From assembly GCA_947478865.1 (NCBI GenBank), contig CANJXF010000011.1, positions 1 to 64,000 of the forward strand: a DNA stretch of 64,000 nt, given 5' to 3'. The DNA is from Verrucomicrobiales bacterium (GTDB lineage: Bacteria > Verrucomicrobiota > Verrucomicrobiia > Limisphaerales > CANJXF01). Of this stretch, positions 28,783-42,480 are shown in pieces. Each line of letters begins with the position of its first letter. Position 1 is the first letter of the stretch. Position numbers and translations under genes: made by a program. The notes beneath the pieces are model-generated. The model was given only the letters and a program-made list of their open reading frames with translations, was not told the origin of the DNA and ran no database searches.

Positions 28783-30246
28783 ATGAACGAAAAAAACAAC
28801 CCACCTCTCCTCACGACCACCGGCGGCAATCCGGTCAGCGACAACCAGAACTCTCTCACCGCCGGCCCGCGCGGCCCGCTGCTGATGCAGGATTATCAAC
28901 TGCTCGAAAAGCTCGCGCATCAGAATCGCGAGCGCATTCCCGAGCGCACCGTTCACGCCAAGGGCACCGCGGCTTACGGCACCCTGACCATCACGCACGA
29001 CATCACGAAGTTTTCCAAAGCCGCCGTCTTCAAGCCCGGCGCCAAAACCGAGGGGCTCCTGCGCTTTTCCACCGTGGCCGGCGAGCGCGGCGCGGCGGAT
29101 GCCGAGCGAGATGTGCGCGGGTTTGCGCTGAAGTTTTACACGGAGGAAGGCAACTGGGATCTCGTCGGCAACAACACGCCGGTTTTTTTCATCCGCGATC
29201 CGCTCAAGTTCCCCGACTTCATCCACACGCAGAAGCGCCACCCCAAATCCAACCTCCGCAGCACCACCGCCATGTGGGATTTCTGGTCACTCTCGCCCGA
29301 GTCGCTGCACCAAGTCACGATCCTCATGTCCGATCGTGGCCTCCCCAAGAGCCTGCGCCACGTCAACGGCTATGGCAGCCACACCTTCAGCCTGATCAAC
29401 GCGGCGAACGAACGCTTCTGGGTGAAATTCCATTTTAAAACCTTGCAAGGCATCCAGACCATGACCAACGCGGAAGGCGATGCCGTCATCGCCAAGGATC
29501 GCGAAAGTTCGCAGCGCGATTTGTTCGAGGCCATCGAACGCGGCGAGTTTCCCAAGTGGCGTTTCTGCGTGCAGATCATGCCGGAGAAGGACGCCGAGAC
29601 GTATCGCTGGAATCCGTTCGACCTCACAAAAGTCTGGCCGCACAAGGATTATCCGCTGATTGACGTCGGCGTGTTGGAACTGAACCGCAACCCGGAAAAT
29701 TATTTCGCCGAGGTCGAGCAGTCCGCCTTCAGCCCATCGAACATCGTGCCCGGCATCGGCTTCTCGCCCGACAAAATGCTCCAGGCGCGCATCTTCTCCT
29801 ACGCCGACGCGCATCGTTATCGTGTCGGGACGCACTACGAAATGCTTCCGGTCAACCGGCCCAAGAACGCCGTGCATACCTATCACGCCGATGGCCCGAT
29901 GCGCTTCGACGCACCGAAAGGCACGAACGCCTACTACGAGCCCAACAGTTTTGGCGGACCGAAGGAAGACAAGCGCTTCGCCGAGCCGCCGTTGAAAATC
30001 TCCGGCGATGCCGACCGCTATAATCATCGCGACGGCAACGATGACTACACGCAGCCGGGCGACCTCTTCCGCTTGATGACGCCAGGCCAGCAGCAACAAT
30101 TGTTCGGCAATGTTGCCGCCGCCATGGCGGGCGTTCCGGAAGAAATTATCCAGCGCCAGTTGGTGCATTTCCACAAAGCCGATCCCGCTTACGCTGAAGG
30201 TGTGGCCAAAGCGGTCGGCGTGAAGAACGGCGCCGCAGTCCGCTAG
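28783..30246 (+). CDS. Catalase (monofunctional heme)
   Basis: [50 protein letters not shown]..., [41 protein letters not shown]. Confidence 0.97.
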
Positions 30247-30270
30247 TTCACCTTCGGCAACGACTAAGCC

Positions 30271-30798
30271 ATGATCCACGCCATTACCGAGAGCGAAGAA
30301 CAGCGCTACGCGGAATTGCAATTGATCGCGCTCGATTTCGCGCGCCATGGCGAAACCGCCTCTCTGGCGGCCATGCTTCGGCATGGCCTGCCCGTGAATC
30401 TCGCCGATGCAAAAGGCAACACGCTCTTAATGCTCGCCAGTTACAATGATCAGGCGCAAACCGTCCGCATGCTCCTGGAACAGGGCGCCAATCCCGACGC
30501 ACGAAATGATCGCGGGCAAACCCCCTTGGGTGGCGTGGCGTTTAAAGGCTATCCAGAAATCGCAACCCTGCTTCTCGAGCACGGCGCGGACATCGATGCG
30601 GATAACGGTGGCGGCATGACCCCGATCATGTTCGCCTCGATGTTTGGGCGCGTTGCCGTGGTAGAGCAATTGAAGAAGCACGGCGCATCGCTTGATCGCC
30701 GCAATCGGCTCGGCGTGTCGGCGCGGTTCATGGTTCGCCTGTCGCGTTGGATCAACCGGTTCTTCGGTAAAAAAAGGGCGCAGGCCGGCGCGTCCTGA
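30271..30798 (+). CDS. Ankyrin-repeat protein (AnkB-like, downstream of catalase)
   Basis: HGLPVNLADAKGNTLLMLASYNDQAQTVRMLLEQGANPDARNDRGQTPLGGVAFKGYPEIATLLLEHGADIDADNGGGMTPIMFASMFG. Confidence 0.9.
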   Translation: MIHAITESEEQRYAELQLIALDFARHGETASLAAMLRHGLPVNLADAKGNTLLMLASYNDQAQTVRMLLEQGANPDARNDRGQTPLGGVAFKGYPEIATLLLEHGADIDADNGGGMTPIMFASMFGRVAVVEQLKKHGASLDRRNRLGVSARFMVRLSRWINRFFGKKRAQAGAS

Positions 30799-30816
30799 GC
30801 CTTGCCCGCCGCGAGG

Positions 30817-32085
30817 TTATTCGTTCTCGATGCGAAACAATTCGGTCCGGCTGCGCAGGTAAAGGGCTTTTCCATCGACGGCGGCGGATGCCATGAAGCC
30901 GTCTCCCAATTGGTTCTCGGAAACAATTTTAAATTCCCGCGCGGCATTGATCACCGTCGCTTTTCCCTCCTCGTTGAAAAAATAAACGCGCCCTTCCGCG
31001 TAGAGCGGCGACGCGGAAAAGTTTCCCCCGATCCGTTCGCGCCAGATTTCTTTTCCCGTCTTCGCCTCCATGCAGGTGGCGATTCCTCCGTCGTCGATCA
31101 TGAAAAGCAATTCCTCCACCAGCAAGAGCGATGGGCGCGTCGGGACGTTGCGCGACACCTTCCACACGATGTTCGATTCGTTCAGAATCCCCTGCCCGCC
31201 CGGCCGGATCGCCACCACTTCTCCATGACCATTTCCGGAGCAGAGATAAATTAATCCGTTCCCAAAAACCGGCGTCGTGCTGGCGGAATAGGTCTTCGTA
31301 TCCTCCACGCGCCAGATTTCTTTTCCCGTGAGCGGATCGTAGGCGTAGGCGGCTTTCGATCCTTGACTGATCAGGATTGGTTTGCCGTCAATTTTGAAAA
31401 CGCGCGGGGTGGAGAACGCCTTGCGCCAGTCGCCTTCGCGTTCCGGTTTGCCGTCGGGACCGGCATCTTTGTAATCCACCGAACGTTCCGTGCGCCAAAC
31501 TGTTTTCCCCGTTTGTTTGTCGAGAGCCACAACGAACTGGTGGTCGCTCCCGTCAAAATGATGGATCAATAGATTTCCGAAAATGCAAACGGAGGAACCC
31601 GCGCCGCGATAATGATTGCAGACGAAATCGCGCCGCGCCCAAATCACTTTGGCGGTCCCGGCATCAATGCACGCCACGCCCGGCGAGCCCCAGCTGACGT
31701 AAAGCCGTCCCGCCTCGATGACTGGCGTCGGCGAACCGTAGGTGTTGAAACGATGCGCAAACTGCGGCGCTTCGACATCAAAAATTTTCTCGTTGTGCAC
31801 GATTTTTCCGGTTTCGCGATCGACACAAACCACGGATAGCTGCGAGCCGTTTTCGGATGCAGAGGTCATCCAGATTTGATTTTTCAGAATCACGGGCGAA
31901 GACCATGCGCGCCCGGGAATGGCGCTTTTCCACTTCACATTTTTCCCGGCGCTCCACGTGATGGGCAAATTCCTCGCCTCAGAAATCCCATCGCCGCCGG
32001 GACCGCGAAACTGCGGCCATTCCGCGAACGAGATTGAAGTCAGCAGCGGCAAGCCAGCCAGGCCTAGGAAAAATTTGGATCGCAT
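30817..32085 (-). CDS. PQQ-binding-like beta-propeller repeat protein (BamB-like)
   Basis: MRSKFFLGLAGLPLLTSISFAEWPQFRGPGGDGISEARNLPITWSAGKNVKWKSAIPGRAWSSPVI. Confidence 0.9.
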   Translation of the reverse strand: MRSKFFLGLAGLPLLTSISFAEWPQFRGPGGDGISEARNLPITWSAGKNVKWKSAIPGRAWSSPVILKNQIWMTSASENGSQLSVVCVDRETGKIVHNEKIFDVEAPQFAHRFNTYGSPTPVIEAGRLYVSWGSPGVACIDAGTAKVIWARRDFVCNHYRGAGSSVCIFGNLLIHHFDGSDHQFVVALDKQTGKTVWRTERSVDYKDAGPDGKPEREGDWRKAFSTPRVFKIDGKPILISQGSKAAYAYDPLTGKEIWRVEDTKTYSASTTPVFGNGLIYLCSGNGHGEVVAIRPGGQGILNESNIVWKVSRNVPTRPSLLLVEELLFMIDDGGIATCMEAKTGKEIWRERIGGNFSASPLYAEGRVYFFNEEGKATVINAAREFKIVSENQLGDGFMASAAVDGKALYLRSRTELFRIENE

Positions 32086-32281
32086 TCCGGGAATTTTGCG
32101 CAAGCGAATGCACAAATCCAAGCCTCCTTTGACACCAGCAGCTTCTCCGCGGACATCGCTGAATCGCCGTCCACCATTTGTCTCCGGCATTTACAATCAG
32201 GTGAAATCGGCGAACATGCCCATCCCTTCGGAGAAACTAATATGCCGCAGGTGAATTAACCGCAGTAGAAAGATAAAAATC

Positions 32282-32407
32282 ATGGGCGATAAATCCCCGA
32301 AATCGAATCAGAAGAAAACTTCACAGAAACAAGCCGTCGCGAAAAGCGCCAATCAGAAGAAAACTCAAGCCGTCGCCGCCAAGGCCGCTTCCGCCAAGAA
32401 ACGATAA
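32282..32407 (+). CDS. Small basic Lys/Ala/Gln-rich protein (41 aa)
   Basis: Not in ORF track: MGDKSPKSNQKKTSQKQAVAKSANQKKTQAVAAKAASAKKR*. Confidence 0.6.
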   Translation: MGDKSPKSNQKKTSQKQAVAKSANQKKTQAVAAKAASAKKR

Positions 32408-32489
32408 TCACCCCACTTCTATCTTCCCTGGTTTAAACATTGGGGAAGACAGATTCCGCCCCGGCGCGGGCGATTTCCCGGCCCGCTTC

Positions 32490-32963
32490 TCACCCCTTCA
32501 CCCCTTCTTTCAACAACCCGTCCAGATCCAGGTGGCGCGTAAACATCGCCATGTTTCCATTGCCGTCCCGCGGCCATTCTTCACGCGGACGATCCCAGTA
32601 AAGTTCCACCCCGTTCTCATCCGGGTCCCGCAGGTAAAGCGCCTCGCTCACGCCGTGGTCCGAAGCGCCGTCCAGCTCGATGCCTGCCGCCAGCACGCGA
32701 TGCAACGCATCGGCCAGTTCCGCGCGGGTCGGGTACCGCCGCGCCCATTGACTCATCATCCGCGTCGATTGATTGGCTGATCGCGGACTTCGCGGTCGTG
32801 CAAGTTGTCTTCGATCCACTGTTACCGGACTTTGCAGTCGTGTAATCCGGGCTCGATCGGCGGTTCGAGAACTCTGAAGTCGTGTATCTGTCGAATGATT
32901 GATGGTTAGCGAACCATGCCGTTCGGTAATCCTTCGATTTTCCATGGATTGGGCCGGATTCAA
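32490..32963 (-). pseudogene. C-terminal half of a VOC/glyoxalase-type protein fused to a 42-bp repeat-encoded N-terminus
   Basis: RAELADALHRVLAAGIELDGASDHGVSEALYLRDPDENGVELYWDRPREEWP is VOC-like, but the upstream half is a low-complexity 14-aa repeat. Confidence 0.6.
32784..32960. repeat. Degenerate 42-bp tandem repeats (about 4 units)
   Basis: Unit starts ggacttcgcggtcgtg (32785), ggactttgcagtcgtg (32827), gaactctgaagtcgtg (32869), gaaccatgccgttcgg (32911): exact 42-bp spacing. Confidence 0.7.
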
Positions 32964-33017
32964 GGTGAAAACTCTCCAAAATCATCAGATTTAATCAGCG
33001 GTGGCTACAAGTCATCG

Positions 33018-33140
33018 CATAAATACCGGAGCGCGGCTGTGTCGTCCTGGACCAGCCGCAGCGGATGGCGCATTTCATTGGTATTCGAGTCCGCTGCGGC
33101 TGGTCCTTGGGACACAGCCGCGCTCCGTTCGCTATTTATG
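33018..33140. repeat. Long imperfect inverted repeat (REP-like), arms cataaataccggagcgcggctgtgtc...accagccgcagcgga / tccgctgcggctggt...gacacagccgcgctccg...tatttatg
   Basis: Arms read directly; single-arm relative at 47421-47457. Confidence 0.8.
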
Positions 33141-33401
33141 AGCTGCGTTCTAGAGAGAGGAAGCGCCGCGACTGGCACCGTGGTCAGGTCGATAAGTTCC
33201 GCCGCAAGGCGGAATGAACTCACGCATATCAGCAGGATCAACCAGCATCCGCGATCAGCGGTGCAATCGATAATATGTTCTAACTTCGTTGATGGTGGCG
33301 TCTGCCAACTCCTCAGTCCATTGCGCAAGGTCGGAAAGAAGAACCGTGAAAAAAACGGAACCAAATCCTATTGCCCGCTTGACAAAAATTGAGCCATATC
33401 A

Positions 33402-33530
33402 ACGATGCGGGTCACCTACCGCCGCCGGGACAGTAGGTGGAGCTCAAAAAGAATACCCAAGCTCGCGCAGAGCCGCGAACGGATGGCGCGGGCGGCGGTT
33501 AGGTGAACCCGCCGGGTTAGCCCATGCATG
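33402..33530 (-). other. Palindromic attC-like terminal site of the last cassette in the array
   Basis: gggtcacctaccgccgcc ... ggcggcggttaggtgaaccc inverted repeat; the upstream ORF's stop TAA lies in ggctaac. Confidence 0.4.
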
Positions 33531-33939
33531 TTTCATAGTAGCCTCTGGCTGTCCGACGAAAATATAGATAAAGGCCTGGGAGGAGTGCGAGCATCACGAA
33601 GGCAAGCACAGTGTCAATGCTAACCCGCCCCACAGAGAGGGTGCCCACCATGACTAGCCCACAACCTCCAAGCACGAGCATAGGGCGCGACCAACGCCGT
33701 GCACGAATCAATCCGTAGCTCACCACCGAAAAATATGCACCCACGCAACAGAACACCAGACCTCCTCCCCGACGCCAGAACTCCGCAAACGAAACGGGCT
33801 CCCCGGCAATCCGGAAATCCATGCCCGGCACGAATGCCAAAGGAAGCGGCGAGGAAAGCAGAAGGCAGCAAGCCGTGAGAATGCGAAGGCCGGTGGGCAT
33901 TCGCTTGAGCGCTCCTATGGTGGCCCCAAAAATAGTCAT
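33517..33939 (-). CDS. Cassette ORF: small membrane protein of unknown function
   Basis: MTIFGATIGALKRMPTGLRILTACCLLLSSPLPLAFVPG...; multiple TM segments; preceded by GTTAAGCCATACGGTCTAG. Confidence 0.6.
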   Translation of the reverse strand: MTIFGATIGALKRMPTGLRILTACCLLLSSPLPLAFVPGMDFRIAGEPVSFAEFWRRGGGLVFCCVGAYFSVVSYGLIRARRWSRPMLVLGGCGLVMVGTLSVGRVSIDTVLAFVMLALLPGLYLYFRRTARGYYETCMG

Positions 33940-33991
33940 ACGAAACGGCTAGACCGTATGGCTTAACAAAGAGAAGAAGAGGGTGTTTGAT

Positions 33992-34193
33992 TTGGAGCGT
34001 GGGTTATCCGCCGGAGCGGACCTATCCACAATGTTAAAGTCCCGGCATAAAGCCGGGCCGTTGCTAACCATGTAAAACCAAACACCCATGAACAAAACAG
34101 TGCATCACATCGGTTGAGCCGTCCACCAAGAAACGATCGCCACGCAATCGCCCCGGCCAGGCCGGAAAAGAAAACCGCATAGAAGACTTCAGG
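33992..34193 (+). mobile_element. Internally deleted IS110/IS1111-type remnant (copy A)
   Basis: atgaacaaaacagtgcatcacatcggttgagccgtccaccaagaaacg at 34088 = MNKTVHHIG*AVHQE, degenerate version of the intact 5' end at 36224. Confidence 0.6.
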
Positions 34194-34210
34194 TAAGTTC
34201 GACCGGGCTT

Positions 34211-34279
34211 GTTCAACAACGGCGCTTCGACGCTCCTTCGCTGCGCTTAGTCGGTCAAAGCTAGTCTTGGAGGTTAGGC
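34211..34279 (-). other. attC-like site A (R'' GCCTAAC ... R' GTTGAAC, 69 bp)
   Basis: Minus strand GCCTAACCTCCAAGACTAGCTTTGACCG...GCGTCGAAGCGCCGTTGTTGAAC; stop TAA of the 34274-34618 ORF lies inside GCCTAAC. Confidence 0.5.
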
Positions 34280-34618
34280 CACTGGTGTCTCATGCTCTCC
34301 AACAAATCGTCCGTCTGGATTCATGATAAAACTGTCGGTCACGTCCGGAGTGTAAACCGGAATGAACCCCAATAACGGCCTCTGCGGCTCTGCCGAAAGG
34401 TCACCGCAAACACGGACATCGCCGTGCGGCTTGTCGTCCCACAACGCCTGAAACTCCATCTGATACTCAGTGCCGTCGGGAGCAGTGCCCTCGATGTGCT
34501 CCAGGCAATCGTGCGCTTTTCGGTCGCGCTCGACTTGCTCCGCAAGCTGCGCGTAACTCCAAGTGCGAAACTTCGCCAAGTGCTCTGACAGAATCTTGTG
34601 CATCTCGTCTTTGCTCAT
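34274..34618 (-). CDS. Cassette ORF: conserved hypothetical (114 aa)
   Basis: MSKDEMHKILSEHLAKFRTWSYAQLAEQVERDRKAHDCLEHIEGTAPDGTEYQMEFQALWDDKPHGDVRVCGDLSAEPQRPLLGF...; preceded by GTTAGGC 14 nt before the ATG. Confidence 0.75.
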   Translation of the reverse strand: MSKDEMHKILSEHLAKFRTWSYAQLAEQVERDRKAHDCLEHIEGTAPDGTEYQMEFQALWDDKPHGDVRVCGDLSAEPQRPLLGFIPVYTPDVTDSFIMNPDGRFVGEHETPVA

Positions 34619-34797
34619 GGCGTGCGAAGTGGCCTAACAGGTATTCGGGAGCAGATTGCGGTATTTCCCGGTTGGCATATACGGTGGTTAATTCACCCTT
34701 TCGCTCGTGTCAACAAGGGATTACAGTTTTTCTCTCCATGAATATTGAACCGGGAAAAACCGCAGGCCGGATCGGCCAGAAATCCTTCCGCTGCCCA

Positions 34798-34902
34798 AGT
34801 GCCATCGGCACGAAATAGTCGCAGCCCAGGGTCGAGCGAAGCGACCACCCTGGGAATCAAGCCTCAATACACGCAGTCATTCTGCCGAAGGCGCGAACGC
34901 CG
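34798..34902. repeat. Dispersed repeat 'agtgccatcggcacgaaat...gccgaaggcgcgaacgccg' (copy 1)
   Basis: Related sequence at 36322-36427; contains palindromes gtgccatcggcac and cccagggtcg...cgaccaccctggg. Confidence 0.7.
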
Positions 34903-34919
34903 TGAGCTCGACCGGGCTT

Positions 34920-34990
34920 GTTCAACAACGGCTCACTTCGACGCTCCTTCGCTGCGCCCAGTCGGTCAAAGCTTGCCTTGGAGCTTAGGC
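34920..34990 (-). other. attC-like site (R'' GCCTAAG ... R' GTTGAAC, 71 bp)
   Basis: Same core as the sites at 34211-34279 and 35531-35600, followed by AACAAGCCCGGTYGARC in all three. Confidence 0.45.
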
Positions 34991-34997
34991 GGCGTTG

Positions 34998-35255
34998 TCA
35001 TGGTGCTGGGACAAGGTGAACTGTGACTGCGCTGACGATAGCCGAAAGCGCGAGAATGACACCAGCTGCAATCCATGCCGGAAAGATGCCTCCGTGTGGG
35101 CCGATCTCAATGTCGCGACGGACAAGAAAGAAGATGAATGCGGCGAGCGCAGGAGTGAGAGCGACAGCGACCGCAAACATCTTCGGGCGGCCAAGCCGAC
35201 GGACAACAGTGCTCAGCACCACAGCGAGAACAAGAGCGAGTGTGAGAATGATCAT
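34998..35255 (-). CDS. Cassette ORF: small membrane protein (85 aa)
   Basis: MIILTLALVLAVVLSTVVRRLGRPKMFAVAVALTPALAAFIFFLVRRDIEIG...; preceded by GTTAAGCCATACGGTCTAGGC. Confidence 0.6.
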   Translation of the reverse strand: MIILTLALVLAVVLSTVVRRLGRPKMFAVAVALTPALAAFIFFLVRRDIEIGPHGGIFPAWIAAGVILALSAIVSAVTVHLVPAP

Positions 35256-35313
35256 GACGTCTGATGATGCCTAGACCGTATGGCTTAACAAAGTGAAGAA
35301 GAGGGTGTTTGAT

Positions 35314-35514
35314 TTGGAGCGTGGGTTATCCGCCGGAGCGGACCTATCCACAATGTTAAAGTCCCGGCAAAAAGCCGGGCCGTTGCTAACCATGTAAAAC
35401 CAAGCCCCCATGAACAAAACAGTGCATCACATCGGTTGAGCCGTCCACCAGGAAACGATGGCCGGCGCAGCGCCCTTGTCAGGCCGGAAAAGAAAACCGC
35501 ATAGAAGACTTCAG
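35314..35514 (+). mobile_element. Internally deleted IS110/IS1111-type remnant (copy B)
   Basis: Transposase-like start at 35410 (atgaacaaaacagtgcatcacatcggttgagccgtccacc). Confidence 0.6.
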
Positions 35515-35530
35515 TAGTTCAACCGGGCTT

Positions 35531-35600
35531 GTTCAACAACGGCTAGCTTCGACGCTCCTTCGCTCCGCTCAGTCGGTCAAAGCTAGCCTGAAGGTTAGGC
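35531..35600 (-). other. attC-like site B (70 bp)
   Basis: GCCTAAC-CTTCA-GGCTAGCTTTGAC-CGACTGAGCGGAGCGAAGGAGC-GTCGAAGCTAGCC-GTT-GTTGAAC: 13-bp inner stem with one G:U, R''/R' consensus ends. Confidence 0.55.
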
Positions 35601-36065
35601 CGAATTCGGTATTGGTTTTCTTGAAAGCCGTGCATAAATAATTAGCCAAGCGACAATACAGGAAATCAAAAGTGGCAGCCTCGCGAGAGTGAGCCAATGA
35701 CCATTGAACTGCCACCAGCCGTGCAATGCTCCAAGAAGCGAGCCGTCGCCGACCGGGGGACGAAATAGGACGCTGAGCCCCGAAACATGCATCCGCCAGA
35801 AGAATGCGGCTCCAAGGCAGGCCAGCGTGATGGCGGTCCATGCCTTGGGCCGGAGCCACATCAGAACAGACAGTGCTACACTGGCCGCAATGAAGGCGAA
35901 TAGTTCCAAACTCGCGGTAACGCGGTATCGCTGGGCGAATTCGCTAACGTGGTCTGCGGCGGGTTCTGGCAGGGGCACACTCCACAGCAACGGAATCTGG
36001 ACAAGTAAGATGCCCCAGAACACCGCGTTCAAAACCGCTATCAACTTAATGCGCTGGTTGCTCAT
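35595..36065 (-). CDS. Cassette ORF: small membrane protein (156 aa)
   Basis: MSNQRIKLIAVLNAVFWGILLVQIPLLWSVPLPEPAADHVSEFAQRYRVTASLELF...; stop TAA inside GGCCTAACC; preceded by GTTAAGCCATACGGTCTAGGC. Confidence 0.7.
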   Translation of the reverse strand: MSNQRIKLIAVLNAVFWGILLVQIPLLWSVPLPEPAADHVSEFAQRYRVTASLELFAFIAASVALSVLMWLRPKAWTAITLACLGAAFFWRMHVSGLSVLFRPPVGDGSLLGALHGWWQFNGHWLTLARLPLLISCIVAWLIIYARLSRKPIPNSA

Positions 36066-36223
36066 AAGTCGCCTAGACCGTATGGCTTAACGAAGGGTTT
36101 AAGAGGACGTTTGGATCCGGTAGAACGCGGGTGGCCGGGCGTGAGCCAGGCCGAGCCGGAAGGTGAAAGGCCCGTCGTCGAAACAATGAATCATTCATCA
36201 CAGCAGAAAGGAACCAAACGCCC

Positions 36224-36297
36224 ATGAACGAAACAGTGCATCACATCGGATTGGACGTCCACAAGGAAAGCAGCGCCGTGACCATCGCCCCGGAGAA
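36224..36297 (+). mobile_element. IS110-family transposase N-terminal remnant
   Basis: MNETVHHIGLDVHKESSAVTIAPE = start of the IS110 DEDD-type transposase, then abrupt loss of homology. Confidence 0.7.
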
Positions 36298-36321
36298 GCC
36301 CGATGCTCCTTCCCCTTTCCC

Positions 36322-36427
36322 AGTGCCAGCGGCACGAAATATAACAGCCCCGGTTCGAGCGCCGGCGAACACCCGAGGTTCATGCCTCCATTCCGTTGAT
36401 CACTTTGCCAAAGGCGCGAGCGCAGCC
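36322..36427. repeat. Dispersed repeat 'agtgccagcggcacgaaat...gccaaaggcgcgagcgcagcc' (copy 2)
   Basis: Related to 34798-34902. Confidence 0.65.
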
Positions 36428-36578
36428 GTGCTTCATCCACGATGCGCCGGTTGGCTTGATTTTTTCCCAAAATCTCTCAGTTACAGCTTTGAACTCCGAG
36501 CCTGCCTCTTGAGGTTCTATCGTTGGTTCGCTCGTCTTCACTCTGGACATCCGAGCCGAATTTGTCGTTGATTTACGC

Positions 36579-38432
36579 GTGATTTTCATACCGACCTTCC
36601 TTTGCCTAGCTCGCCTGAGCGGAAGCCTGCGTCGGTTTGCCGTTCTGGTTGCGCTGGCGGCGCTGTCCATTCCCGCAACGACTCAGGCCGCCCTGCCCGC
36701 GCGACTGGTGCTGCTGGTGGACGGTGTTTCTTATCGTGACATGAAAGCGTTGCAGGAGGGAATCACCTACCAAGATCGCAAAGGCCGGTCGTTGTATCGC
36801 CAGGGATTTCATCAGGATTATTTTCCGGTCAGCCGCCTGGTATCAACCTTTCCGTCGGTCAGCGATCCGGCGTGGACGGAGATACTCGGGAACCGCCCGC
36901 CGCCCGGCTATCAGCGCACTTATTTCAACGCGATCGAGGGTTCGGAAATCTATCTCAACGGCCTCACTAGCTCGGGGGATTACGAGCGGCAGATGACGTG
37001 GCAGATGGACGGCGATTTCCGCCGGATGATGAGTTACGTCTTCCCGCTCAGCGCGTTTAATTACGAGATCAACGCATTCGCCGAGAACTTCCTCCAGACC
37101 CGCGGCGTTACGAACTATTACGCCCTGATTCATTCCACGGATGTCGCCCAGCATTTGTCCGGCGATATTTACGACATGCTTTGCGCGCTTGACGCCAAGC
37201 TTCAGGAGCTGCGCGCCATTTATCGAGCCCGCGAAGGGAAGGATCTCGAAATCCTGCTTCTGTCCGACCACGGGAATAACCACGCCGGCGGAGGCAAGCG
37301 GGTCGCCGTCGGAAGTTTTCTAAAAGCGGCCGGATACCGGATGGTGAAGTCGATCAAGGATTCGAAGGACGTTGTTCTCCCAACGGCTGGAATTGAGTCG
37401 TGGGTGGAGATCCATAATTCACCGGCGGAAACGGAACGGCTCGTCGGATTGCTCTCCAAAATGGAAGGGGTGGATATTTTGACCGCGCGGGACCCGGATC
37501 AAACCAACCGATTCATCGTCGTGAATTCAAAAGGCGAACGCGCCGTCATCGACTGGAACGCCGCAAAGAATTCGTTTCGCTATTCAAGCGAGACGGGCGA
37601 CCCGATCAATTACCGTCCCGCGGCCGAAGCGCTCACCCGGAAGAACGCGCTGGACGCCGATGGATTTGCCACCGCCGCGGCATGGTTGGCTGAAACCCTG
37701 GCGCATCGGTATCCCCTCGCACTGGAACGAATCGTCCGCGGCCATACCCAGGCGGCGCTCAACCCGGCATCCATTCTCATCAGCCTTAAGAATGATTATG
37801 TGCATTGCGAATGGCTGATCAGAAGGGGCGTTGCCCTCGTGACCTCCGGCGGCACCCATGGAGGCCTCGATGAGATCAATTCGAATGGAATTCTCCTGAG
37901 CAGTTTTGCGCCGACGGCGGACACATCGACCAGCCGTGTGGCCGCGCTGTTTGATGGATTTCAAGGGCTGCGCGATTATCGCGCGGAAGAAAACGGCGCC
38001 GAATGGGTTTCCAGAAAAGGCGAAGACATCCGAACGATGGCCCAGGCGACGCTCGACGGGTCCGCCGGGAGACCCGCGATTGAGAATCTTTTCCTGCGCA
38101 TCTGGACGCCAGCGTTTACCCGGCTCGGCATCGAAGCTCCGGTTAATGTCGTGATTGAAAAGGCTTCGCAATTCTCGTCGGCGCAAATTCGCCGAACTGA
38201 TCCCAAGCCCGCCAAACCCTTTCAACGCTATCTTCGACTTGAGCGCCCGGTTTCCATTCCAAACCGGCTGCCTTACGAACGAATTTACGGCTGCCCTGCG
38301 GAAAGCGTCGTCCTTGAGCCACAAAAAGTTTACCGGATTTCAGGGCAGATTCAGGACTTGAAGAAAAAGATTCAGATCTTCCATCTCACATTCCGCACGG
38401 ATCAAAACGGGTTGCCGCTGGTGCGCGATTAA
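36579..38432 (+). CDS. Alkaline-phosphatase-superfamily protein (nucleotide pyrophosphatase/phosphodiesterase-like), secreted
   Basis: ARLVLLVDGVSYRDM..., LVSTFPSVSDPAWTEILGNRPPPGYQ, LLLSDHGNNHAGGGKRV; signal peptide; GTG start. Confidence 0.65.
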   Translation: MIFIPTFLCLARLSGSLRRFAVLVALAALSIPATTQAALPARLVLLVDGVSYRDMKALQEGITYQDRKGRSLYRQGFHQDYFPVSRLVSTFPSVSDPAWTEILGNRPPPGYQRTYFNAIEGSEIYLNGLTSSGDYERQMTWQMDGDFRRMMSYVFPLSAFNYEINAFAENFLQTRGVTNYYALIHSTDVAQHLSGDIYDMLCALDAKLQELRAIYRAREGKDLEILLLSDHGNNHAGGGKRVAVGSFLKAAGYRMVKSIKDSKDVVLPTAGIESWVEIHNSPAETERLVGLLSKMEGVDILTARDPDQTNRFIVVNSKGERAVIDWNAAKNSFRYSSETGDPINYRPAAEALTRKNALDADGFATAAAWLAETLAHRYPLALERIVRGHTQAALNPASILISLKNDYVHCEWLIRRGVALVTSGGTHGGLDEINSNGILLSSFAPTADTSTSRVAALFDGFQGLRDYRAEENGAEWVSRKGEDIRTMAQATLDGSAGRPAIENLFLRIWTPAFTRLGIEAPVNVVIEKASQFSSAQIRRTDPKPAKPFQRYLRLERPVSIPNRLPYERIYGCPAESVVLEPQKVYRISGQIQDLKKKIQIFHLTFRTDQNGLPLVRD

Positions 38433-38497
38433 GCCGCGCGTTTCCCGGCGTAATTTTGAATTGGCTCGTCAATGGGTATGCCGTTCGCGCAAAAATC

Positions 38498-39970
38498 TTA
38501 GGAGAGAATTCCCCGGATCACCTCGCCGTGCACATCGGTCAAGCGGCGTTCCGCGCCGTTATGATAGTAGTTCAACCGCTGATGATCGAGTCCGAGCAGA
38601 TGCAGGAGGGTCGCGTGCAAATCGTAAATGGTCGTGACGTTCTCGACCGCTTTGTAGCCAAATTCGTCAGTCGCGCCGTAGCTGAAACCTCGTTTCACCC
38701 CGGCGCCGGTGAGCCAGACGGTGAAGCCATGCGGATTGTGATCTCGACCGCTCGCCCCTTTTTGAAAGGTCGGCATGCGACCAAATTCGGTGACGAACAC
38801 AACGAGCGTGTCTTCCAAAAGTCCGCGTTGCTTGAGGTCGTTGATCAACGCAGCGCAAGGCTGGTCGAGGATCGTGCGATGGACGTCGTATTGTGATTTG
38901 AGCGTTCTGTGCCCGTCCCAGTTCCCCACCCCTTCCCCCATGGCGTAAGCGCCGTTGAAAAGTTGCACGAAGCGCACGCCGCGCTCGACGAGACGTCGCG
39001 CCAGAATGCAGTTGCGGGCGAATCCCGCCTTCACTTTGTTGCTGTCGTTGGCGCCGTACATTTCCAGGGTGGCGACGCTTTCCTTTTTCAAATCGGCCAC
39101 CTCCGGAGCGCTGAGCTGCATCTTGGCGGCAAGCTCGTAGCTGGCGATGCGCGCGCTCAAATCCGTGTCGCCCGGATGCTGAGCGAGATGCCGGTCGTTG
39201 AGGAATTTCAGAAATTCGCGCGTGTTCTTCTCGCCCGAGGACGAAATTTCCCTGGGCGTTTCGAGGTTGGGAATTCCTTTTTCAGTGTTGAATGCCGTTC
39301 CTTGAAACACAGCCGGAAGAAATCCAGCGCTCCAATGATTGGGCCCCATCTGCGGCACGCCGCGGGGATCGGGAATCGCCACGAACGCGGGCAGATTCTG
39401 ATTCTCGCTGCCCAGCGCATACGTCGCCCATGCGCCCATGCTTGGAAAACCGTCGAGAATGAACCCGGTGCTCATCTGATTCTCGGCGGGGCCGTGCGTG
39501 TTGGACTTCGCCGTCATTGAATGGATGAAACAAAAGTCATCCGCCATGTCGGCGAGATTCGGCAGGAGATCAGAGATCATTTTCCCGGATTGTCCGCGCG
39601 GATGGAAATCCCAGATCGGCTTGACCAGGTTTCCATTCTCGCCCTGGAAGGTGACGAGTCCGGCGGAACCGGGCATCGGCTGGTCGTGGCGCTTGATCAA
39701 CTCCGGTTTGTAATCCCAAGCATCCAAATGGCTCAGCGCGCCGGAGCAAAAGATGACCACGACGTTTTTGGCTTTTGGCTTGAAATGCGGCGCCCGCGGA
39801 GCAAACGGTTTTTCAGGCGACCATTGCAACGGAGTTTTGTCCGCCAGCAATTCCTGCCCTCGCAACAACGAAAGCAACGCGACCGCGCTAAGGCCGGTGC
39901 CGCCATGGCGAAGGAAATCGCGGCGATTGAGCATCCACCGGCCAGCGTTTGAAATAGTGTTCTCGTCCAT
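38498..39970 (-). CDS. DUF1501 domain-containing protein with Tat-type signal
   Basis: [101 protein letters not shown]. Confidence 0.95.
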
Positions 39971-39972
39971 GA

Positions 39973-42480
39973 TTAAAAAACGAAAATGAATTCATTCGCA
40001 TTCAGCATCGCCCGGCAAAACGAGGAGAGCCCTTCAGCGCGAACGAATTTTCTCGAGGCGGAAATTTCTTTGCGATCAGGTTCACGCTGAAAGGTGAGGG
40101 CGAAGGCGCGACGGATTTGCGCAGTGGAATCAGCGCCCGCCTCCCTCTGCAAGCGTTCGGCGAAGAACCCGGCTTGCTGCATGATGAACGAACTATTCAG
40201 CAGATTCAGCGCCTGCAAAGGAGTCGTGCTCGTGCCGCGCTTTGGCGCGATTTGCCCGGCGTCGGGACAATCAAAAACGCCGAACACGCCATCCGTGCGT
40301 TGGCGGACGATGGTTCCATAAACCATTCGGCGAAAGGTTTCCGGCGGCCATTCGCGGCGCGGAGAGTAAACGCGCACATAGTTTTCATTCGCCTCAAAAA
40401 AGCTGAAGCCCGGCCCGCCCATCCTGAGGTCGAGCTTTCCGGTCACGGCGAGAATCGAATCGCGAATCACTTCCGCATCGCTTCGGCGCGGCGGAAAACG
40501 CCAGAGCAGTTTCGTGTTCGCATCCACGGCGACACACTCTCTGCGCGCGGCGCTCGCCTGCCGATACGTCGCTGAATTCACGATGAGCCGCTGAATATGT
40601 TTCATGCTCCAGCCGTGATCGATGAATTCGGAGGTGAGCCAATCGAGCAATTCGGGGTGGGTAGGTTTTGCGCCATTTTTTCCAAAGTCGCTCGGCGTGG
40701 CGATCAGGCCGGTTCCAAAATGATATTGCCACAACCGATTCACCATCACGCGCGCCGTCAGCGGATTGTTGGGATTCCCAATCCACTGGGCCAGCGCGAG
40801 GCGACGCTGCTGGTCGTCGGTCAAGTCTTTGGGAATCTTCGCCGCAGGACCGGCGTTCGTGTTGAGCGCGAACGCCACGGGAATCGCGCTCAGGGCGTTG
40901 GGTTTAACCTCCTCACGTTTCTGCATCGCCTCGCCGCGATAGAGCAGATGCGTGATCTCTGGTTTTCCATCCAACGTCCCCGCATAAATCATCGGGCCAT
41001 TCGACAGCTCTGCGATGCGTGATTTCAAATCGGCGCGTTCAGACAAAAGCTTTTTCGCGGCTTCGTTGGACGCGAGCGCAGGCGAGTCCGCTTTCTTTTC
41101 CGCGTCATATTTCTGGCGATCCACAGAGGAGGCCACGACGTGGTAAACGTTGGATTCCGTGGCGACTTCAATTTTGTAATCCACCGCGAGGCGATCAACG
41201 AAGCGCTGCTCGCGGTCGCGCCCCCACACTACTTTCGCGATCGTGACCACTTCAGGAAACTCCAACTCGACCCAACCTTTCCCGCCCTCGTTGGAAATCC
41301 AGCTGCGCCCGTTGCCGTAGCGCCCGTCGTTGATGTGTTCCGTCCGATGAATCTCTGAATTCGGATAAACGCTCGACGCGGTCGGCTTCGTGCCGTTAGA
41401 CGCGAGCGCGATATTCCTCGGGGTTTTTTCCGCGGTGAAAACCTCCAGCTCATCCAGGCACGGCTCGGCTTGAGTCGTTTGGGCAATTGTAAAACGGAGG
41501 CGCTTTGCCTGCACCGGGGCAAAGCGCTCCAGGTTCTTGCGCGCATTCACCGGGAGCCGCACCGCATTGGTCGCAAGTGGATTGGCCAGCGGCTCAAAAT
41601 TTTCCAGCTCCGTTTCCACTTCTCCCAATCGCGCCTTCTTGGCGGCAAGCTCCTTGTTGCGAGCCTCCATGTCCGAAACCCGCAGCGGGCGTTCACCGTG
41701 CTTGACCCCTTCAAACACCGCCTTCATCGCGAAATAATCTTTCTGCGGTATCGGATCAAATTTGTGATTGTGACAGCGTGCGCAGCCCACGGTCAGACCG
41801 AGGAAGGTTGAGCCGGTGACGCCCACCATGTCGTGCAGCTCATCCACCCGCTGGTTTGCGGTCAGGACTGGGTCAGGACTTTTCACCTGGTCCCACGGTC
41901 CGCCCACCAGGAAACCCATGGCTTCATCCACGCCAAAAATATCCCCAGCGATTTGTTCGGTAACGAATCGATCGAACGGTTTATCCTCGTTGAACGCGCG
42001 GATCACGTAATCCCGGTACGGCCAAGCGTTGGGCCGCGGCTGATTCATTTCAAACCCGTTTGATTCTGCGAACCGCACCGTGTCGAGCCAGTGCCGCCCC
42101 CATTTTTCGCCATATCGGGGGGACGCGAGCAACCTCTCCACAACCTCTTCGTAGGCTCCGGGCGATTTATTTTTCTCGAACGCGGCCAGTTCCTCTGGCG
42201 TCGGGGGCAATCCAGTTAAATTCAAATAAAGACGCCGCAACAACGTGCGCCGATCCGCTTCGCGCGAGGGAGACAGGCCGTCTTTCCGCAATTCTGCGGC
42301 AACAAAGGAGTCGATGGGATTGCGGGCGGGTAAACCGACTTGCGCCGACGGCACCTGCGGACGTTTGACCGGTTTCAAACTCCACCACGCGTTGTCATTG
42401 GTCGAATCCGCCATGCCACCTAGAACGGAAGCAAACAGGGCGGCAATGACCCATAATGTTCGATGGCGAAACGCTGGCAT
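39973..42480 (-). CDS. DUF1549/DUF1553 (PSD1) protein with an F5/8 type C-like insertion
   Basis: [114 protein letters not shown]; 2-nt gap to DUF1501. Confidence 0.95.

Follow-up and report, generated by a model that had tools for sequence, protein, structure and literature searches.

An attC-like hairpin behind integron gene cassettes is very probably the end of an IS91-type element that prefers attC sites

Introduction

A hairpin that carries the end boxes of an integron attC site and lies behind a small open reading frame (ORF) raises the question of whether it is a recombination site of the integron integrase (IntI), a dispersed repeat or the trace of some other mobile element. Such a hairpin, 70 bp in length, is found at 35531-35600 of the stretch of Verrucomicrobiales DNA considered here (64,000 nucleotides, hereafter the window), where it had been singled out from the letters alone as attC-like (hereafter the original prediction). 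On its anatomy, its linkage to a transposase, its exact junctions, the covariation of its stem and its many copies, all observed directly, this hairpin is very probably the 3' (oriIS-type) terminus of a rolling-circle element of the IS91 family with a preference for integron attC as target. The features of the locus, named according to this reading, are the following:

35531-35600, minus strand: junction between an attC R'' box (GCCTAAC, 35594-35600) and an IS91-type hairpin end
35589-35593: terminal 5 nt of the IS91-type end
35576-35588 and 35541-35553: arms of the stem, with the loop at 35554-35575
35531-35537: conserved GTTGAAC
35483-35593, plus strand: IS91-type 3' (oriIS-type) end, in transposase direction, homologous to the region downstream of the Y2 transposases of genomes G018, G251 and G131
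34160-34272, plus strand: second copy of the IS91-type end, with attC R'' GCCTAAC at 34273-34279
34905-34983, plus strand: third copy of the IS91-type end, in which the inner ori region is reduced to about 28 bp, with R'' GCCTAAG at 34984-34990
35595-36065, minus strand: cassette ORF of 156 aa, stop codon within R'', no Pfam match
34998-35255, minus strand: cassette ORF of 85 aa, hydrophobic, ending 10 nt before R''
34274-34618, minus strand: cassette ORF of 114 aa, stop codon within R'', no Pfam match
33517-33939, minus strand: cassette ORF of 140 aa, ending in GGCTAAC, no Pfam match
35269-35482, plus strand: IS110-type relic (left end and transposase start), flanked by the IS91-type end and by the R' side of attC
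33947-34159, plus strand: second copy of the IS110-type relic
36071-36310, plus strand: third copy of the IS110-type relic, with GCCTAGACCGTATGGCTTAAC, then an ATG at 36224 and MNETVHHIGLDVHKE; the IS91-type end is missing

Sequence, fold and conservation of the hairpin

Read on the minus strand from 35600 to 35531, the sequence agrees letter for letter with the original prediction, namely GCCTAAC-CTTCA-GGCTAGCTTTGAC-22 nt-GTCGAAGCTAGCC-GTT-GTTGAAC, and the nearly perfect 13-bp stem described there is borne out, with one T.G pair. Taken alone and folded as DNA, this single copy is only weakly unusual, 8 of 200 shuffles being equally good (z -1.6). The two recurrences announced at 34211-34279 and 34920-34990 are present, but their decayed stems show no folding advantage over shuffles. 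That the hairpin is nonetheless far from chance follows from its 21-fold recurrence in the genome of origin, against none for the control, and from the covariation of the stem: across 17 copies from 11 genomes, 94.5% of the cells of the 13-bp stem are paired, with 28 double changes, a count that does not exceed 9 in slid controls. Conservation extends to the loop CCGACTGAGCG.AGCGAAGGAGCG, and other families of the same order have homologous hairpins with stems of different sequence.

Cassette context in the genome of origin

A search for the core, allowing up to 3 mismatches, was performed in the window's own genome (G000, 4.4 Mb), as the original prediction had suggested, and returned 21 copies, the reversed control pattern giving 0. 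While that prediction would have settled for a generic REP should the copies mostly lack R ends, an R''-like box (GCCTAAC, or the same with 1-2 changes) abuts the hairpin in all 21, and GTTGAAC is present in nearly all of them. Relative to the R''-like box, an ORF stop lies between -27 and +3 in every one of the 21 copies, and 19 of these 21 ORFs are at least 75 aa long, as against about 6% for ORFs of that length at random positions. As such, GCCTAAC is upheld as a genuine attC R'' box, and the window does contain a row of integron-type gene cassettes, i.e., small ORFs on the same strand, each with its end at an R'' box. Four of them are recognised, three of which were annotated by the ORF scan without a Pfam match; a GTTAGGC box of R' type lies about 15 nt ahead of the ATG of the ORF at 34274-34618, and no hairpin stands behind the GGCTAAC end of the ORF at 33517-33939, where attC is lost or decayed. 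Integron cassettes are the right frame for these observations because the genome holds both the C-terminus of an IntI, at a contig start (C3:131-388, 137 bits), and three N-terminal IntI fragments (C93:12383-12526, C102:192-323 and C73:19924-20046) with attI-like GTTAGGC. Two of these three N-terminal pieces sit within cassette arrays, behind the hairpin end. Elsewhere in the same genome, contig C82 still has ordinary attC sequence, R' included.

Linkage of the hairpin to an IS91-type Y2 transposase

Five genomes belonging to the same order (G018:C115, G081:C70, G251:C73, G131:C612 and G117:C168) have an IS91 Y2 transposase, complete or fragmentary, with the same covarying hairpin about 300-600 bp downstream of it. 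In G018 (MAG SKW90, contig JAOAIM010000203.1), the order inward from the hairpin is an IS91-type Y2 transposase (614-1666), a tyrosine recombinase (1709-2608) and then the remainder of an ordinary attC. This transposase passes the NCBI IS91 model NF033538 with 310 bits against a cut-off of 125, and Y2_Tnp and Zn_Tnp_IS91 are matched as well; a sequence search found no relative in the PDB. Intact Y2 genes occur in two of six genomes, G018 and G081, both carrying the hairpin. A transposase scan of a wider genome contig collection hit only two Verrucomicrobiia MAGs, which are again G018 and G081, and an exact-pattern scan of that collection for the core gave 0 matches. In the G000 assembly, the search for an intact transposase or tyrosine recombinase of the IS91-linked type yielded only the 5' end of a recombinase and C-terminal transposase remnants, the latter comprising 59 and 42 aa of Y2 on C25 and C82 (E about 1e-9), located about 300 bp inward from the hairpin. 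The genomes are all draft assemblies, with contig breaks falling within the element.

Just inside the hairpin, the IS91 elements carry GTTCAAC, the counterpart of the GTTGAAC that resembled R'. In G131:C612, hairpin and GTTCAAC are present although the element lies outside attC. Since the same hairpin and GTTCAAC follow IS91 transposases, and in this case outside attC, the original assignment of hairpin and GTTGAAC to attC L''/L'/R' gives way to that of an IS91-type hairpin end, to which the ordinary attC halves on the far side of the element likewise point.

Complete elements and their insertion point in attC

The complete element is ordered as follows: (i) a start GTTGAACCNAGCCGCTGCGCGGC (ter-type end), (ii) the tyrosine recombinase, (iii) the IS91 Y2 transposase, (iv) 300-600 bp, (v) GTTCAAC with the 13-bp hairpin, and (vi) 6-7 nt. 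Inside ordinary attC, complete elements are inserted at one point, ...GCTGCAGCGC(A/C)TG^GTTRGGC, with no target duplication. In G018 the element stands between ...GTTCGCTGTAGCGCATG and GTTAGGC (CATG side), and in G117 between ...TTCGCTGCAGCGCCTG and GTTGGAC (CCTG side), both without duplication; in G251, CATG precedes the element start and ATTAGGC follows its end, attC being partly deleted there, and a miniature copy of about 100 bp occupies the identical attC point in G131:C27. The corresponding empty sites, ordinary attC reading GTTCGCTGCAGCGC(A/C)TGGTTAGGC, are found in the array beside an intact intI (G003:C66). The ordinary attC of the order (G003:C66, G251:C73) have R'' GCCTAAC in common with the hairpin junction; they differ from the hairpin by an L box GCTGCAGCGAAC with bulges and by a complementary R', and correspond to the target, not to the hairpin.

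In 20 places from 18 of 320 genomes (control 0), an attC-like half meets the element start GTTGAACCNAGCCGC. Recombinase or transposase genes lie behind the join in at least 7 places; some of the others have other letters after GTTGAAC or hit a contig end and may belong to a different element. The one such join in G000 (C82:17304-17469) runs into the start of a tyrosine recombinase gene at the contig end. Among 18 recognisable element starts at transposase loci, the attC half is clear in 6, resemblance is partial in about 5 and the flanks are of another kind in about 7, so the preference for attC is strong and not exclusive. Next to the hairpin end, the commonest box is GTTA, the others being GTTC, GTTG, ATTA and ATTG, which is in line with the known IS91 target, GTTC/CTTG.

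Window copies as decayed derivatives

The three copies of the window consist of the hairpin end only, over 28 to about 110 bp. Inside the hairpin end lies an IS110-type relic in two of them and a different repeat in the third, and the element start is absent; with relics or another repeat on their far sides, these copies are identified via the hairpin end only. Most of the 21 copies of G000 agree over the 60-75 bp next to the hairpin on its inner side and diverge beyond, the inner ends falling into several classes, namely an IS110 relic, a transposase remnant, an IntI fragment with an attI-like box, chromosomal sequence and other repeats. A longer copy of the IS110 sequence (C90:12396-12734) matches PF01548. 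The window copies are decayed derivatives in which the hairpin end is constant and the inner ends vary; most copies of the genome are probably dead, as several stems have decayed. Such a combination is the expected outcome of one-ended IS91 transposition, by which the 21 copies may have arisen, internal deletion being an alternative route.

Proposed mechanism

These junctions place the element between L'' and R'' of the attC bottom strand, with its hairpin end against the GTTR box. Transposition would proceed via single-stranded DNA, an extruded attC hairpin presumably serving as the single-stranded target, and on the folded bottom strand the transposase would link the hairpin end with the GTTR belonging to R''. 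Because the insertion splits R'' from L'', the attC would probably be inactivated. A more far-reaching scenario, which we hold to be doubtful, is that of an order-wide, attC-specialised IS91-type lineage in which one-ended transposition would bring intI-attI fragments as well as entire cassettes into further attC sites with no need of the integron integrase, and invaded sites would stay usable thanks to the attC-like hairpin end.

Competing explanations

Were the 70-bp sequence a genuine species-specific integron attC, recombined by IntI at G^TTGAAC, its consensus letters (R'' RYYYAAC and R' GTTRRRY are fitted by GCCTAAC and GTTGAAC, respectively), its location behind cassette ORFs, the IntI fragments of the genome and a sequence near-uniform within the species would all be accounted for. 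However, the hairpin and its GTTCAAC occur downstream of IS91 transposases, and GTTGAAC-type boxes belong to the IS91-type end outside attC too (G131:C612); the 13-bp stem has no extrahelical base, whereas the ordinary attC of G251 has bulges; and GCCTAAC and GTTGAAC pair at just 5 of 7 positions, one wobble included, the ordinary attC of relatives pairing better. Moreover, where a new cassette should begin after the G^TT of R', most copies have the same 60-75 bp of transposon sequence, and attC halves of another, ordinary type stand on the far side. A genuine attC is accordingly very improbable. A variant of this explanation, in which the host R'', the element hairpin and GTTGAAC would form a hybrid site still usable by IntI, so that attC would not be fully killed, appears somewhat less improbable and still unlikely. 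The spacing of R'', stem and GTTGAAC does mimic attC, and four copies (on C3, C50, C90 and C93) have a small inserted element immediately after GTTGAAC, but the IS91-type end includes GTTCAAC in insertions outside attC as well, bulged bases are lacking and the stems of many G000 copies have decayed.

A generic hairpin of REP or MITE type, dispersed and unrelated to integrons, would fit the many dispersed copies with a conserved core. This explanation is scarcely credible, since a cassette-type ORF and an R''-like box precede 21 of 21 copies, the hairpin is part of a transposon with transposase (Y2, not Y1/RAYT) and recombinase genes, and no Rfam family reached its gathering score at 30000-40000 (cmscan). 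Two further candidates were rejected. A giant attC of about 330 bp, from GCCTAAC to GTTAAGC, proved to be an IS110 relic plus an IS91-type end. As for the hairpin being a target of IS110/IS1111 elements, the IS110 relics lie inside, and the hairpin occurs without IS110 in other genomes.

Relation to known systems

The element shares with the IS91 family (ISCR, Helitron-like HUH Y2) a Y2 transposase passing NF033538 with a Zn-binding domain, a hairpin end behind the transposase, a GTTN target beside that end and the absence of target duplication. Like plasmid relatives of IS91, in which pairs of a site-specific integrase and an IS91 transposase are common, it pairs a site-specific integrase gene with its transposase. 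It differs from the family by frequent insertion at one base inside attC and by GTTRGGC as target besides GTTC.

Other mobile elements are known to make use of attC. Group IIC-attC introns are mobile elements that target attC hairpins; they are retroelement ribozymes, as opposed to the HUH element considered here, and cmscan of 30000-40000 detected no group II intron family. Their association with attC is discussed in PMC7923331. As cited in PMC11187229, IS1111-attC elements (IS110/IS1111 family) target the attC of gene cassettes (Tetu and Holmes, 2008; Post and Hall, 2009). That group has an RNA-guided DEDD transposase and is unrelated; the present element is HUH Y2 with a hairpin end, the hairpin being linked to Y2 and not to a DEDD transposase, with the IS110 relics further inside. 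For ISCR28, an IS91-like element of sul4 modules, attC was called at or right after its end (data not shown) and interpreted by the authors as passive cassette shuffling (PMC12772301); junction, target and insertion point are not given there. A search of the open-licence literature, i.e., to the exclusion of subscription papers, found no description of attC as an IS91-type target. As such, attC-targeting IS91-type elements appear undescribed, the closest precedents being IS1111-attC elements, group IIC-attC introns and, by its attC calls, ISCR28.

Significance

The finding connects two gene-spreading systems. If true, HUH rolling-circle elements would constitute the third unrelated class of elements on attC, after IS1111-type elements and group IIC introns, and if a single precise base on the bottom strand of attC is chosen, folded single-stranded attC would be a general landing pad. 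As IS91-type elements are able to take neighbouring DNA along, a copy inside attC would be well placed for integrase-free cassette movement, and integrase-independent cassette spread becomes testable; such movement has been posed as an open question (PMC7923331). On a practical level, attC finders can misread IS91-type ends as attC, which may bear on the attC calls for ISCR28/sul4 (PMC12772301).

Additional observations

The IS110-type left ends of the window (33947-34159, 35269-35482 and 36071-36310; GCCTAGACCGTATGGCTTAAC...MN(K/E)TVHHIG) directly precede cassette ORFs, each at the R' side of an attC; possibly the same attC sites were also exploited, from their opposite end, by elements of IS110 type. 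One ORF (L091, 10313-10903, minus strand) is a fusion of an IS110 transposase start with the C-terminal portion of the tyrosine recombinase linked to IS91. The insert exactly behind the hairpin GTTGAAC in four G000 copies is GC-rich, has inverted ends CCAGGGCTGAC(G/C)CATAC and is followed by a second GCTAGCCGTTGTTGAAC; it lies on contigs C3 (71.7 kb), C50 (14.0 kb), C90 (14.0 kb) and C93 (12.1 kb). A target duplication by this insert (type B) was discarded, the repeated GCTAGCCGTTGTTGAAC not being immediately adjacent on the right side. On the minus strand of the window, 34798-34854 and 36322-36353 match the Rfam Acido-Lenti-1 RNA with 25 bits against a gathering score of 37 and correspond to repeats adjoining cassettes.

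In G003:C66:14430-14493 (L067, 6430-6495), the same hairpin is found, except that its loop has the opposite orientation with respect to both stem and GTTAGGC side. A second subgroup of IS91-plus-recombinase elements (L116, L117, L118, L119 and L121) has another hairpin end, AAGGGTGTAGT...AATACACCCTT, with a GTTN box a few nt beyond it in most copies.
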